Origin: Methylotenera sp.
Lineage (GTDB): Bacteria > Pseudomonadota > Gammaproteobacteria > Burkholderiales > Methylophilaceae
Direction of reading: 5' to 3'
DNA: 39,180 bases
Assembly (NCBI GenBank): GCA_028688575.1
Contig: JAQTXW010000019.1
Location: forward strand, 1-39,180
Shown here: piece by piece, positions 1,530-38,047 of the stretch
How positions within the stretch are numbered: the stretch's first letter is position 1
Layout: each line of letters begins with the position of its first letter
Position numbers and translations under genes: made by a program
Notes under the pieces: generated by a model
Databases searched by the model: none
What the model was told of the DNA's origin: nothing
Seen by the model: the letters and a program-made list of their open reading frames with translations, nothing else

Positions 1530-2237
1530 CTACGATTGCAGTGTTTCGCGCTCCATCTCCTGCACTGAAATATGGCGCACATCTTTGCCTTTGACCATAT
1601 AAACCACATATTCAGCGATATTCTTAGCGTGGTCGCCAATCCGCTCAATCGCTTTGGCAACAAACAATACCTCTAGCGACATTGAAATCGTACGCGGATC
1701 TTCAAGCATAAACGTAATCAATTGACGCATCGCCGCACGAAAATGCTCGTCCACCTGCTCGTCCTGCCTCGCCACTTCTACGGTTTTACTCACGTCGAGG
1801 CGCGCAAAAGCATCTAATGAGGTACGCAGCATTTCACGCACAAGTGCAACCATGGCTTTAATCTCATTAAAGCGTGGTTTGTACATGCGATCTTCATCAA
1901 AGATTTTTTGTGCAGTACGCGCTATCTTGGTCGCTTCATCACCAATGCGCTCTAAGTCAGTGATGGTTTTAACCATCATCATCACCATACGCAAATCACT
2001 GGCCGCAGGCTGCCGACGCGCGATAATATGACTGCAGTCTTCATCAATCTCAACTTCCAGCGCATTGACACGTGCATCATTAACCATCACCTCTTTAGCG
2101 AGGTTGGTGTCTAATTTAACCAATGCTTCAAGCGCCTGAATGATTTGCTGCTCTACCAAACCGCCCATTTCAAGCACTTTGCCGCGCAAAGACTCTAACT
2201 CTGCATCATACTGTTTAAAGGTGTGTTCCGAATGCAT
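1530..2237 (-). CDS. phoU: Phosphate transport system regulatory protein PhoU
   Basis: About 235 residues, the normal PhoU length, all-helical with two PhoU repeats. Each repeat carries the metal-binding signature: ITDLERIGDEATKIA in the first and AKAIERIGDHAKNIAEY in the second. PhoU represses the Pho regulon by linking the PstSCAB transporter with the PhoR kinase. I chose the ATG at 2237 (MHSEHTFKQ): GGAAAAAAAC precedes it, and the only upstream start is a TTG at 2249. The pst and phoBR genes are absent from the window, so PhoU is encoded away from the rest of the system unless they lie beyond the edges. rpiA lies 81 bases upstream on the same strand. Confidence 0.95.
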   Translation of the reverse strand: MHSEHTFKQYDAELESLRGKVLEMGGLVEQQIIQALEALVKLDTNLAKEVMVNDARVNALEVEIDEDCSHIIARRQPAASDLRMVMMMVKTITDLERIGDEATKIARTAQKIFDEDRMYKPRFNEIKAMVALVREMLRTSLDAFARLDVSKTVEVARQDEQVDEHFRAAMRQLITFMLEDPRTISMSLEVLFVAKAIERIGDHAKNIAEYVVYMVKGKDVRHISVQEMERETLQS

Positions 2238-2318
2238 GTTTTTTTCCAATCGTTACTATTACATTAATCATAGCGCTCAAATATGACAGTTTAATGACAA
2301 GTCACACCCATAATCACA

Positions 2319-2978
2319 TTACTTCTGATAAGTCTTCACACCCTCAGCGGTTGCCAGCAACAGTACATTGGCGGGGCGTGCCGCAAAAAGACCATTAGTC
2401 ACAACGCCTACGATTTGGTTAATAGCGGCCTCTAATGCCACAGGATCAGCAATTGCCAAACCGTGCACATCCAGAATCACATTACCGTTATCGGTTGTAA
2501 AATCACGCAACTGTGGTTGACCACCCAATTTAACCAACTCACGTGCCACATAGCTTTTGGCCATAGGCAGCACCTCAACAGGCAGTGGAAACTTACCCAG
2601 CACTGGCACATATTTACTTGCATCACAAATACAAATGAATTTCTTAGCTACTGCTGCCACGATCTTTTCACGCGTTAGCGCGCCGCCGCCGCCTTTTAGC
2701 ATGTGCATATGTTCAGTAATCTCGTCGGCACCGTCGACATAAATATCAAGGCTATCAACCGAATTAAGATCAAACACTTCAATCCCATGCCCGCGTAAAC
2801 GCTGCGCTGTGGCTTCTGAGCTGGCGACTGCACCCTCAATTTTATGCTTAACCTTGGCCAATTCCTCAATAAAAAAATTAGCGGTTGAACCCGTACCCAC
2901 GCCAATAATCCCGCCCTTCACATATTCCACTGCGGCCTTGGCAACTTGCTGCTTCAATTCATCTTGTGTAAACGCCAT
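2319..2978 (-). CDS. rpiA: Ribose-5-phosphate isomerase A
   Basis: A 219-residue enzyme that interconverts ribose 5-phosphate and ribulose 5-phosphate in the pentose phosphate and ribulose monophosphate cycles. Landmarks: GTGST at 28-32 (phosphate loop), DGADE at 82-86, and [11 protein letters not shown] at 95-105. Asp82, Asp85, Lys95 and Glu104 correspond, shifted by one, to the E. coli active-site residues Asp81, Asp84, Lys94 and Glu103. Length is standard. It is transcribed toward phoU and diverges from ilvA, with about 80 bases between their starts. The enzyme is cytosolic. Confidence 0.96.
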
Positions 2979-3058
2979 TTACTTAATTCCTTATAAATTC
3001 TTTATAATGTCAATCAAACCATAACTATACACCGCTACTGGCGAATACAAAATAACGC

Positions 3059-4570
3059 ATGTCTATCAACTACCTAGAAAAAATACAAAACTCACACGTA
3101 TATGACGTGGCGCATAACACGCCGCTGGACTTTCAGCCCAATTTATCTGCGCGTATTCATAACCGTGTTTTATTAAAGCGCGAGGACATGCAGCCTGTTT
3201 TTTCATTCAAACTGCGTGGTGCCTATAACAAAATGGCAAATCTGCCCAAAGATGTGCTTGCGCGCGGTGTAATTGCGGCCAGTGCTGGCAACCATGCCCA
3301 AGGGGTTGCACTTTCTGCGCAAAAATTAGGCTGTCGCGCAGTGATTGTGATGCCGACCACAACGCCACTCATTAAAATTAATGCAGTTAAAAGCCGTGGT
3401 GCAGAAGTCGTTTTGTTTGGCGATAGTTACTCAGATGCTTATGTACATGCACTTGAGCTCGAAAAAACACAAAAACTCACTTTTGTGCACCCATATGACG
3501 ACCCTGATGTCATCGCAGGCCAGGGCACCATTGCGATGGAAATACTCAACGCACACCCTGAACCTATAGAAGCTATTTTTTGCTGTGTAGGCGGTGGTGG
3601 GCTGATTGCTGGCATTGCGGCCTATGTGAAAGCGGTCAGGCCAGAAATTAAAATCATCGGCGTAGAAGCGCGTGACGCCGAGGCGATGACTCAATCACTC
3701 AAACAAGGCCAGCGTGTGATGCTGGAGCAAGTTGGCCTGTTTGCAGACGGTGCTGCTGTTAAGCAAGTTGGCGAGCATACATTCGCCTTGTGTCAGCAAT
3801 ATGTCGATGAAATGATTGTGGTAGATAATGACGCCATTTGCGCCGCCATCAAAGATGTATTTGAAGACACACGCAGCATTCTGGAGCCCGCAGGGGCACT
3901 CGCCACCGCTGGGCTTAAAGCCTATGCCGCCCGAGAGAACTTACAAGACAAAACCTTAATTGGTATCGCATCAGGCGCAAACATGAACTTTGACCGCCTG
4001 CGTTTTATTGCAGAGCGGGCAGAATTAGGTGAAAAGCGCGAGGCAGTGTTAGCAGTCACTATCCCTGAAAAGCCAGGTGCTTTTAAAACCTTTTGCCGCC
4101 TGCTAGGCAACCGTAGCATCACCGAATTTAACTATCGGTATTCAGACCCTAAAGAAGCGCATATTTTTGTGGGGGTTGCAGTGACCAATCCTCAAGAGTC
4201 TGAAAATCTGGTCAAAGAACTGCAAACACAAGGCCTGCCCGCACTTGATTTGTCAGATAACGAAGTCGCCAAACTGCATTTACGGCACTTGGTAGGCGGC
4301 CATGCGCCACAAGCTGAAAATGAAGTTGTTTTCAGGTTTGAGTTTCCAGAAAAACCGGGCGCACTGATGAACTTTTTAGACAGCATGGGGCATGACTGGA
4401 ATATCAGCCTGTTTCATTACCGCAATCACGGTGCCGATTTTGGTCGTGTACTGGTTGGCATGCAGGTACCCCCGAATGAACTTATTGAGTTTTCTGATTT
4501 CTTAAACAATTTAGGTTACCCTTATTGGGATGAAACACAAAATCCAGCTTATAAACTGTTTTTAGGTTAA
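3059..4570 (+). CDS. ilvA: Biosynthetic threonine ammonia-lyase (threonine deaminase)
   Basis: A 503-residue PLP enzyme that converts threonine to 2-oxobutanoate plus ammonia, the first committed step of isoleucine synthesis. The N-terminal catalytic domain has the PLP lysine at Lys51 in FSFKLRGAYN, SAGNHAQG near residue 75, and the phosphate-binding GGGG at 178-181. Two ACT-like regulatory domains follow: one from about residue 328 (TIPEKPGAFKTF) and one from about 423 (EFPEKPGALMNF). This two-domain layout marks the isoleucine-inhibited biosynthetic form, as opposed to the catabolic TdcB form. No strong Shine-Dalgarno precedes the ATG. The gene is divergent from rpiA and followed by a large hairpin at 4581. 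Confidence 0.96.
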   Translation: MSINYLEKIQNSHVYDVAHNTPLDFQPNLSARIHNRVLLKREDMQPVFSFKLRGAYNKMANLPKDVLARGVIAASAGNHAQGVALSAQKLGCRAVIVMPTTTPLIKINAVKSRGAEVVLFGDSYSDAYVHALELEKTQKLTFVHPYDDPDVIAGQGTIAMEILNAHPEPIEAIFCCVGGGGLIAGIAAYVKAVRPEIKIIGVEARDAEAMTQSLKQGQRVMLEQVGLFADGAAVKQVGEHTFALCQQYVDEMIVVDNDAICAAIKDVFEDTRSILEPAGALATAGLKAYAARENLQDKTLIGIASGANMNFDRLRFIAERAELGEKREAVLAVTIPEKPGAFKTFCRLLGNRSITEFNYRYSDPKEAHIFVGVAVTNPQESENLVKELQTQGLPALDLSDNEVAKLHLRHLVGGHAPQAENEVVFRFEFPEKPGALMNFLDSMGHDWNISLFHYRNHGADFGRVLVGMQVPPNELIEFSDFLNNLGYPYWDETQNPAYKLFLG

Positions 4571-4580
4571 TGCAATGTTG

Positions 4581-4621
4581 CTGGTTGATATCAGCCAGAT
4601 TGGTTGGCTTATATCAACCAG
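4581..4621. repeat. Long perfect-type hairpin downstream of ilvA
   Basis: Outer arms CTGGTTGATAT (4581-4591) and ATATCAACCAG (4611-4621) pair over 11 bp, then one C-T mismatch, then AGCCA (4593-4597) with TGGCT (4605-4609), leaving a 7-base loop. It starts 10 bases after the ilvA stop but has no T-run, so it may protect the 3' end or be a repeat unit and not a classic terminator. Confidence 0.75.
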
Positions 4622-4775
4622 ACAGTCTTGGCGCAGCTGCTAATGCCTAGCATCAGCACAAATTACAATGTCATGCTAGCAAGCACAATTCTTGCATGCA
4701 CTATGTTTTTAAATACCTAAAAAACTATATAAATAGCACCATCCTTACATCAAAAAAACACTTTGGAGAGAATCA

Positions 4776-5900
4776 ATGAAGTTTACCCCCACCTTGAATA
4801 AAGTAAGAATTAGCTTGGTATTGCTGGCTATGCTGGCAACTGTGAGTAGCTGTGGTAAAAAATCCGAAGACAGCACAGCGGCTGCCGACGCTAGCGTAAG
4901 CGCAGGCGGCTTTGCTTATGTCACCAGTCAGGATGCGGGCGTCAGCGTCATTGACCTTGCCACCATGGAAGTTGTTAAACAGTTTGATGTAAAAGCTGAG
5001 GGTCCTCGTGGCCTCGGGGTAACAGATGACGGCAAAAAACTGATTGTTGCAACACGCGAGAATGAAAGCATCTCAGTGATAGACACCACAACAGGCGAAG
5101 TGCTGCAGCAGATTCATGTTGGCAAAAACCCGGAATTCGTCCGTATCAATGGCAATTTTGCTTATATTTCTTCTGAGCCCAGTTCAGTAGGCGGTCCACC
5201 ACCCAAACCAGGTACTGAGGAAGATGATGATGACGACGATGAAGAAAAGATTCCCGCTAAAATTGCCGTTGTTGATTTAACCAAGGGCGAAAAAGTGCGT
5301 GAAATCACAGGCGGCCCAGAAACAGAAGGCATTGAATTTTCGGCTGATGGCAAAAATCTGGTCATTACCAACGAGGCTGACAACACTGTTACCGTGCATA
5401 ATATTGCTGATGGTAGCTTGTTAAAAACCATTCACACCCATGAGCATGGCGACCGCCCGCGTGGCATTAAAGTTTCACCAGATGGCAGCACCTACCTAGC
5501 TACACTTGAGTATGGCAATAAGTTCATGGTGCTGGATAAAGACTTTAACTTTGTGCGCAATGTGGACACAGGCCAAACACCTTATGGCATTACTTATGAC
5601 CACACAGGCAAACATATCTTTGTTGCTACCAATAAAGAAAAATCCTTACAGGTGTTTGACGCACAAACCTACGAAAAAATTAAAGACATCCCCACAGGCA
5701 ACCGCTGCTGGCATTTTAGCTTCACCCCCGACGACAAACAAATCTTGCTTGCCTGCGGTAAATCAGATGCAGTGTTTGTGATTGATGCAGAAAAATTGGA
5801 AGTCACAAAACAAATAGAGGTTAAAAATATGCCTTGGGGTGTTGTCACTTACCCCAAAGCCATGGGCAGTCTGGATACAAAAATCGCTACCCAAGAATAA
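4776..5900 (+). CDS. YVTN-family beta-propeller lipoprotein
   Basis: A 374-residue exported lipoprotein. The signal sequence runs to the lipobox VSSC with Cys26 as the lipidation site. The rest is repeated YVTN/NHL-like blades, for example VTDDGKKLIVATRENESISV, FSADGKNLVITNEADNTVTV and YDHTGKHIFVATNKEKSLQV, giving about seven blades. This resembles the beta-propeller proteins that accompany PQQ-dependent alcohol catabolism, but no PQQ or dehydrogenase genes are nearby, so that role is only suggestive. An acidic run (Glu148-Glu157 with six consecutive Asp) interrupts a blade after a proline-rich stretch. A GGAGAG Shine-Dalgarno lies 7 bases before the ATG, and a clear terminator follows. Confidence 0.8.
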   Translation: MKFTPTLNKVRISLVLLAMLATVSSCGKKSEDSTAAADASVSAGGFAYVTSQDAGVSVIDLATMEVVKQFDVKAEGPRGLGVTDDGKKLIVATRENESISVIDTTTGEVLQQIHVGKNPEFVRINGNFAYISSEPSSVGGPPPKPGTEEDDDDDDEEKIPAKIAVVDLTKGEKVREITGGPETEGIEFSADGKNLVITNEADNTVTVHNIADGSLLKTIHTHEHGDRPRGIKVSPDGSTYLATLEYGNKFMVLDKDFNFVRNVDTGQTPYGITYDHTGKHIFVATNKEKSLQVFDAQTYEKIKDIPTGNRCWHFSFTPDDKQILLACGKSDAVFVIDAEKLEVTKQIEVKNMPWGVVTYPKAMGSLDTKIATQE

Positions 5901-36682: not shown

Positions 36683-38047
36683 TTATAAGGCACCGAGTAT
36701 GGTGGGGCCAACCTTCTCCCAATAACGGGAAAAGCGCTTTAGCCGCTGCTCGCTAATTTCCACATCCACCAATTTAGCCACGGGCTCCCATCTTGTTGCA
36801 TATGGCCTCAATAATGTCTTTATTTTTGAATTCGGCGTCTCTTGCGTCACCAGTTGCCCCACGCCCTTTTGTTGCAACACGTCATAAGTGTGACCTAGCC
36901 ATACTTCCACATCAATCATTTCACTTAAACAGTCTGCCATAAACTGCAATCGGTTAAGTGGCCAATCTTCATATAAAACAGGATCAAATACAAAAATCTT
37001 GGGGAAAGGCTTTTGCATTAAAAGATTACTGGCACACAACATTTCGTCATGTACGAATACGGCAATTGTTTTAGAATCTGATGATGCATGCATCGGCATT
37101 GGTTTGACTGCATATTGCTTACCAGACCCTGCCGTGGCCTGCTTAAATAAGCGTACGCTCAGCGCTTCATAGCTATCATCAAATGGACAGGTGACATGAC
37201 AGTCTGCGCAGTATCTCTGGCCTGTATAGCGCGCCAGGCTCTCTTTATTGAAATAATAGGGTTTGGAACTAAATGTAGACGCCACCCATTGCCATGACAA
37301 ATGGTTACTTGCCAAATCACCATCTAACAAACACAACTCAAACCAATCGGCAGCCTCGCGCCAGTCCATTTTCAAGTGATGCACAATGTAGCTTGCGAGC
37401 CACATACGCGCATGGTTATGCAAATACCCCTCACTCAATAATGTCTGAATAAACCCATCCATGCACGGCAGTCCTGTTTTTCCCTGCCTGACTGCATCAC
37501 TCAAGGGTCGATATTCTAGCATGACCTTTGCGGGCTCCATTTCGCTCAATATCGCATTGTCTTTTGCATACCAGACTTGCCGCCAATAGTCGCGCCAAGC
37601 CAGCTGCATCAGCATATTTTCCGCAACCACGCCAAAACGACGCTTAACAAATACCAGCACTTCATTTAAGGTAATGCAACCATGCCGTAAATAGGGGGAT
37701 AAGTGCGTGACTGCACCATTCAAAAAATTACGATTTTTAGCATAAGCGATGGCATCGACATCATTCAGCTTTTTAATGGCCTGCATACGGCCACCCGCCC
37801 ACTCTGAGCGTAAATCCATGCCCTTGGCCTCGGGAAACAACCGTTTAATATAATGCAAACGTTCTATATGATCATGAGGCAATTTAATTTTTTGTATTGG
37901 CCGCATTGCTGCATTTCCGATAAATTTGCTTAAGTGTACACCACCCCGCTGCATTTCACCCAACAGCCCGATTGCAGGTAATAAAATTTTTATATGCAAA
38001 AATAATGAAATATCATGCAATAATAATCGCTCATATCGGCTATGCAT
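36683..38047 (-). CDS. Photolyase/cryptochrome-like FAD-binding protein with apparently permuted domains
   Basis: Up to 454 residues. About 50-300 is the helical FAD-binding domain of photolyases: LSPYLRHGCITLNE, AWRDYWRQVWYA, GLPCMDGFIQTLL, GYLHNHARMWLASYIVHH and LDGDLASNHLSWQWVAST (near 240-258). After a cysteine-bearing segment, RYCADCHVTCPF, near 277, residues about 325-425 look like the alpha/beta domain that normally precedes it: IAVFVHDEML, KIFVFDP, then a helix, a VEVWLGHTYDVLQ strand-helix unit and QLVTQETPN. No such domain is upstream. Starts at Met32 (37954, GGGTG upstream) or Met48 (37906) are also possible, and the first 31 residues do not look conserved. DNA repair versus photosensing is undecided. 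Confidence 0.78.
   Translation of the reverse strand: MHSRYERLLLHDISLFLHIKILLPAIGLLGEMQRGGVHLSKFIGNAAMRPIQKIKLPHDHIERLHYIKRLFPEAKGMDLRSEWAGGRMQAIKKLNDVDAIAYAKNRNFLNGAVTHLSPYLRHGCITLNEVLVFVKRRFGVVAENMLMQLAWRDYWRQVWYAKDNAILSEMEPAKVMLEYRPLSDAVRQGKTGLPCMDGFIQTLLSEGYLHNHARMWLASYIVHHLKMDWREAADWFELCLLDGDLASNHLSWQWVASTFSSKPYYFNKESLARYTGQRYCADCHVTCPFDDSYEALSVRLFKQATAGSGKQYAVKPMPMHASSDSKTIAVFVHDEMLCASNLLMQKPFPKIFVFDPVLYEDWPLNRLQFMADCLSEMIDVEVWLGHTYDVLQQKGVGQLVTQETPNSKIKTLLRPYATRWEPVAKLVDVEISEQRLKRFSRYWEKVGPTILGAL

Follow-up and report, generated by a model that had tools for sequence, protein, structure and literature searches.

Photolyases in which the usual domain order is reversed have been described in picocyanobacteria. 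Haney et al. 2022 (PMC9426592) named a fused form, Phr6, and a split form, Phr4 plus Phr5. In both, the FAD domain precedes the photolyase domain, and there are four Fe-S cysteines. According to that paper, the same gene set occurs in Nostoc punctiforme, and the choice between a heterodimer of the split halves and their joining by frameshifting was left undecided. Because of the Fe-S cysteines, the reversed form was predicted to be a (6-4) photolyase (PMC9426592). A Synechococcus phr4 mutant was harmed after UV-C, not UV-B, and the protection given by phr4/phr5 in E. coli was not significantly light-dependent (PMC9426592). Note that this paper was the sole match in our search for literature on reversed or split photolyases, the coverage of which left out most subscription journals.

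Two further groups are relevant. NewPHL proteins (Emmerich et al. 2020), the Phr7 of Haney et al. (PMC9426592), have an inverted topology, with FAD first and a shorter C-terminal domain. They contain a Trp dyad, and the third Trp of the triad is absent (PMC8948257). Short photolyase-like (SPL) proteins are presented in PMC9649867 (citing Xu 2021) as CPD photolyases that contain an Fe-S cluster. NewPHL/SPL proteins are treated also in PMC13274461 and PMC12083526.

The gene studied here lies in a window of 39,180 nucleotides (the whole stretch of DNA analysed), which forms contig C27 in an assembly of 93 contigs and 2.25 Mb. Its product is probably an iron-sulfur DNA photolyase with the FAD domain first (Phr6, or Fe-S short-photolyase-like), and sequence comparison points to CPD as the most likely lesion. 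The domain order, and the existence of fused and split forms, are as reported for Phr6 and Phr4 plus Phr5, a likeness drawn from the published description rather than from picocyanobacterial sequences. The Fe-S cysteines of RS9916 Phr4 are C169, C254, C257, and C263; those of the window protein are at 195, 280, 283, and 287. The host differs, being a member of the Methylophilaceae (probably Methylotenera), where the classified copies are fused. Like NewPHL, the protein has an inverted topology, the FAD domain first, and a Trp dyad. However, Phr7 is described as having a short Z-domain and no Fe-S cysteines (PMC9426592), whereas the window protein has all four, which rules out filing it as NewPHL. 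It shares with SPLs the absence of an N-terminal alpha/beta domain and, by prediction, an Fe-S cluster. The SPL descriptions in PMC9649867 and PMC9178010, which present these proteins as CPD repair enzymes, mention no C-terminal alpha/beta domain in the passages at hand.

The earlier note had placed the novelty of this protein in its architecture, antenna site and function. The architecture is already in print, as Phr6 and Phr4 plus Phr5 (PMC9426592) and as NewPHL, whose C-terminal domain is shorter. What is new is the breadth of the family, the separated partner genes, and the evidence that the split/fused state changed more than once.

The gene and its genomic surroundings

The open reading frame occupies positions 36683-38047, on the minus strand, and encodes 454 amino acids from its first ATG; residue numbers below follow this frame. 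It is real, as the earlier note had claimed, and all of the motifs quoted there (ARMWLASY, DGDLASNHLSWQWV, CADCHVTC, VFVHDEML, FVFDP, and VEVWLGHTYDVLQ) are in the minus-strand translation. The true start is probably Met48, at base 37906. In L004, which at 86% identity is the nearest relative, no Met precedes the equivalent residue; most relatives begin there; and a GGA lies 9 bases 5' of the ATG. The probable coding sequence of this Phr6-type, reversed-order Fe-S photolyase is therefore 36683..37906 (minus strand, 407 amino acids). The longest frame exceeds it by 47 in-frame codons (37907..38047, minus strand), on the side of a divergent NfeD-like gene. Most relatives start beyond this extension, which is probably untranslated.

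The same-strand neighbours are a LemA gene and a GIDE-domain gene. Upstream, the next gene is the divergent NfeD-like gene, and the one after that reads like an SPFH protein. We rejected a conventional N-terminal alpha/beta domain hidden upstream, given the divergent NfeD-like gene and the fact that PF00875 matches just once in the genome, in a distinct, photolyase-like gene carried by contig C38. Filing as a class I CPD photolyase is likewise ruled out, there being no N-terminal PF00875 domain.

Close named relatives are from Methylotenera and the Methylophilaceae. Within the genus, 28 of 37 genomes (its own included) carry the gene, which in one of the 28 is cut by a contig end. In genome G021 (contig C30, 235-487), only short gene pieces with in-frame stops are found, representing a decayed or truncated copy. 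Two loci have a second photolyase gene next to the reversed-order one. In G002 (L029), an FeS-BCP gene at 1-1458 is directly upstream of the reversed-order gene at 1486-2730, on the same strand. In G023 (L017; contig C111, about 2126-4920), the gene directly upstream is of the PF00875 photolyase type.

FAD domain, cysteines and probable lesion

As in Phr6, a PF03441 FAD domain is N-terminal in the window protein; FAD-first order is shared with NewPHL also. The core of this helical domain is matched by Pfam FAD_binding_7 at residues 146-266 (37250..37612, minus strand; E 1.2e-27). Besides this, Pfam gave one sub-cutoff DUF, and no DNA_photolyase domain, for the window protein. With NCBIfam, DASH and other photolyases matched below the cut-off, and a PDB search found photolyases and cryptochromes (best E 1.2e-19). 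A match to PTS mannitol IIA at residues about 219-345 straddles the domain junction and was treated as chance (NCBIfam E 0.0015, far below cut-off; PDB E 0.025).

Four cysteines are candidates for an Fe-S site. In alignment A2, comprising 34 rows of the FAD-domain family, Cys195 (37463..37465, minus strand) is found in all 34, and Cys280, Cys283, and Cys287, within CADCHVTC (37187..37210, minus strand), in 29. The five remaining rows are split forms (L093, L095, L111, L117, and L122) that retain Cys195. We aligned the family profile with that of 12 FeS-BCP-type proteins (the labels class I, FeS-BCP, and NewPHL on loci being assigned by motif and architecture, not by named reference proteins). 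The profiles matched at 97.8%, and Cys195, 280, 283, and 287 fell, one to one, on the four cysteines invariant in all 12. Hence, all four Fe-S cysteines of the Phr6 description are present in the sequence, and their ligand is likely a [4Fe-4S] cluster, with Cys195 the predicted first ligand. The earlier suggestion that CADCHVTC could bind metal thus gains weight, since the motif supplies three of the four. Among other split photolyases, L045 and L046 have Cys195 and no Cys280, 283, or 287; L047 is without Cys195 too. L046 and L111 are apparently identical in sequence.

For active-site residues, we used the E. coli PhrB numbering (E274, N341, M345, N378, W306, W359, and W382) and residue roles. 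Asn211 to Met215 (37403..37417, minus strand) occupy the positions of Asn341 and Met345, where Asn and Met are each found in 33 of the 34 A2 rows. These residues suggest a CPD-type enzyme, rather than the His-bearing (6-4) type. All 34 rows share the FAD-site Asn and two Trps, and the third Trp of the triad is missing from every one. Gln148 (37604..37606, minus strand) is at the Glu274 position, which matters for CPD repair and is Glu in 30 of 34 rows. This substitution would count against full CPD activity of the window protein. Note that FeS-BCP prokaryotic (6-4) photolyases have an N-terminal PF04244 domain, absent here, and that the active-site His of the aligned FeS-BCP row (L033) is replaced by Asn211. 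These two differences rule out filing the protein as FeS-BCP.

On this basis, we infer cofactors, activity, lesion, antenna, and packing for the window protein as follows. The N-terminal helical domain would hold FAD and a [4Fe-4S] cluster, the latter via Cys195, 280, 283, and 287. The C-terminal domain is the usual antenna-type alpha/beta domain of photolyases, attached at the other end, and is separately encoded in many relatives. It would pack against the FAD domain, cover the FAD, and possibly bear an antenna pigment. Reduced FAD, excited by blue or UV-A light, would reduce a flipped pyrimidine dimer by one electron, which would return once the ring splits. The Trp dyad would supply photoreduction and the Fe-S cluster would stabilise the protein. 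The substrate would most likely be a CPD, possibly within single-stranded DNA.

The main rival reading makes the protein a reversed-order (6-4) photolyase, where the Fe-S cluster marks (6-4) enzymes, as Haney et al. predicted for Phr4/5 and Phr6. We consider this unlikely. That the four cysteines are those of FeS-BCP agrees with it, whereas SPLs, described as Fe-S CPD photolyases (PMC9649867), do not. Similarly, the catalytic-position Asn and Met argue against a (6-4) enzyme, while Gln148 and the contrasting UV-C and UV-B phenotypes of the phr4 mutant (PMC9426592) are in favour. The window's genome has no PF04244 match, which also fits. However, such a match is found in 16 of the 37 genomes of the genus (partial in G016), and all 16 also keep the reversed-order gene (Fisher p 0.0024). 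Together with the adjacency in G002, this argues that the reversed-order gene is not a simple replacement of the (6-4) enzyme. Note that the co-occurrence may reflect genome size and completeness.

Alternatively, the protein could be a cryptochrome-like sensor of light or redox state, no longer capable of repair, and FeS-BCP RsCryB has reported regulatory functions (PMC9178010). We find this distinctly improbable. Gln148 would suit a sensor, as would the lack of a known activity, yet FAD-site and lesion-site positions are otherwise kept across rows labelled as five phyla. Furthermore, the LemA, GIDE, and NfeD neighbours include no obvious regulator, and in two congeners the gene adjoins photolyase genes. 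A CPD photolyase is the reading we prefer.

The C-terminal alpha/beta domain

The C-terminal domain spans residues about 325-454 (36686..37075, minus strand) and is recognised, in the same polypeptide, by family profile; no Pfam family matched the window's own segment. For the profile, we built alignment A3, consisting of 34 sequences, each a C-terminal domain or a homologue encoded by its own gene. The conventional photolyase profile was built from 28 of 32 loci, the four with no motif match being omitted. With hhalign, A3 matched these 28 conventional alpha/beta domains at 96.2% (E 2.2e-9) over 100 columns, co-linearly. Controls with all A3 rows gave 13.5% for the FeS-BCP N-terminal domain, 0.1% for USP, 0.8% for SDR, and at most 0.6% for five column shuffles. 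Fused rows alone behaved similarly (conventional 92.6%, FeS-BCP 0.2%, USP 0.1%, SDR 0.2%). For split rows alone, the conventional match was 96.5% and SDR 2.2%, and controls were less clean, since USP reached 12.6% and the FeS-BCP N-terminal domain 86.1%.

Searched singly with Pfam, the 34 members gave PF00875 in 11 (best E 7.9e-5), PF04244 in two, and Usp in two. A full-length Deinococcus relative matched PF00875 at 20 bits, under the 26.6-bit cut-off. Against PDB, the A3 profile had 17 weak matches (best E 0.0088); 15 were in the N-terminal domains of cryptochromes or photolyases and two were secretion substrates. A chance likeness, with the C-terminal segment unrelated to the photolyase alpha/beta domain, is hardly credible: the weak PDB matches and the lack of a Pfam match to the window's own C-terminus would allow it, and the 96.2% profile match with low controls, and PF00875 in 11 of 34 relatives, tell strongly against it.

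The earlier proposal that the FAD domain comes first and the alpha/beta domain last is borne out by FAD_binding_7, the family profile, and the PF00875 and PDB matches. So, too, is its expected profile match to the photolyase alpha/beta family, which relies on the family profile rather than on the segment alone. Its suggestion of a permutation or fusion holds in part. A link with fusion stands, since split two-gene forms exist. Since the alignment is co-linear, whole domains have been swapped, and circular permutation within the alpha/beta fold is ruled out.

Split and fused relatives

A scan of named genomes confirmed at least 592 relatives, of which we classified the best 80 by similarity to a consensus, so that the frequencies given here for split and fused forms are biased. 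Among these best 80 of at least 592, the halves are neighbouring genes in 43, fused in 16, and, by alpha/beta profile, neither in 21. The 43 split loci (22 Cyanobacteriota, seven Acidobacteriota, seven Pseudomonadota, six Chloroflexota, and one Melainabacteria) have the alpha/beta gene near the FAD half, on the same strand, with a 4-base overlap in 13. The 16 fused loci comprise 13 labelled Methylophilaceae and three Pseudomonadota with no family given. All but one of the 21 remaining loci are cyanobacterial, with no alpha/beta half in the stretch. Three further split pairs are L045-L047.

We searched whole genomes for 16 of these 21 loci (all but L079, L090, L100, L123, and L124). An alpha/beta gene was found in 16 of 16, and in both positive controls. 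In two, the FAD half was nearby, on the same strand at a distance of 4.5-6 kb. In the other 14, it was absent around the alpha/beta gene (up to about 9 kb per side, less at contig ends). Hence, the two genes are not neighbours in these cyanobacteria, although all 16 genomes hold both, which speaks for two proteins in those lineages. This makes the assembly of photolyase subunits directly testable, with the fused proteins as single-chain references.

The survey of homologues for the same domain order, proposed in the earlier note, thus finds fused relatives in Methylophilaceae and on Deinococcus plasmids, and split ones in other groups. Reversed-order and split photolyases extend beyond picocyanobacteria to Methylophilaceae, Deinococcus plasmids, Acidobacteriota, Chloroflexota, and SAR116. 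All three Deinococcus plasmids examined encode fused relatives with the cysteines, annotated as FAD-binding domain-containing protein.

To compare fused and split forms, we used a second tree of 58 FAD-domain rows, from which L083, a wrongly chosen ORF, and eight FeS-BCP rows were left out; this tree and the first both warn of long branches meeting. A single clade of all 19 fused rows is rejected on the 58-row tree (p-AU 7.8e-5, in a test run after the first tree was known). The fused/split character requires at least two changes on the same tree. The Methylophilaceae clade has low support (49/85). It is contained in a 20-row set (99/95) with split Ferrovum L103 and NewPHL-like L031, L032, L048, and L059; another five NewPHL-like rows fall in other parts of the tree. 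Cyanobacterial split forms L070, L087, and L099 join the Methylophilaceae in a 36-row set (97/99), in different subclades of a tree that contains no RS9916 or NS01 sequences. The C-terminal domain of L031, L032, L048, and L059 matched A3 at 96.6%, and the conventional profile at only 3.9%. For six other NewPHL-like proteins, the values were 33% (all A3 rows) or 41% (split rows), and 9.1% for the conventional profile.

One possible history, which we put forward tentatively, is that a two-subunit photolyase underlies the family. Its repair subunit, with Fe-S and FAD, and its antenna-type alpha/beta subunit, the product of a separate gene, would assemble in trans, with the genes kept apart in some cyanobacteria and overlapping in other bacteria. 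Single-chain forms would have arisen by fusion at least twice, in Methylophilaceae and in Deinococcus with a Rhodospirillales MAG, and NewPHL-like proteins would be relatives in which the cluster is gone and the alpha/beta domain has been eroded. These proteins likewise consist of one chain, and for this reason the tree is silent on whether splitting or fusing came first.

Ten phage records also match the family, in the FAD part only. The L093 split pair comes from a metagenome bin titled Klebsiella pneumoniae. This label is probably wrong, because in the tree the sequence falls among forms with Alphaproteobacteria and Obscuribacterales labels.
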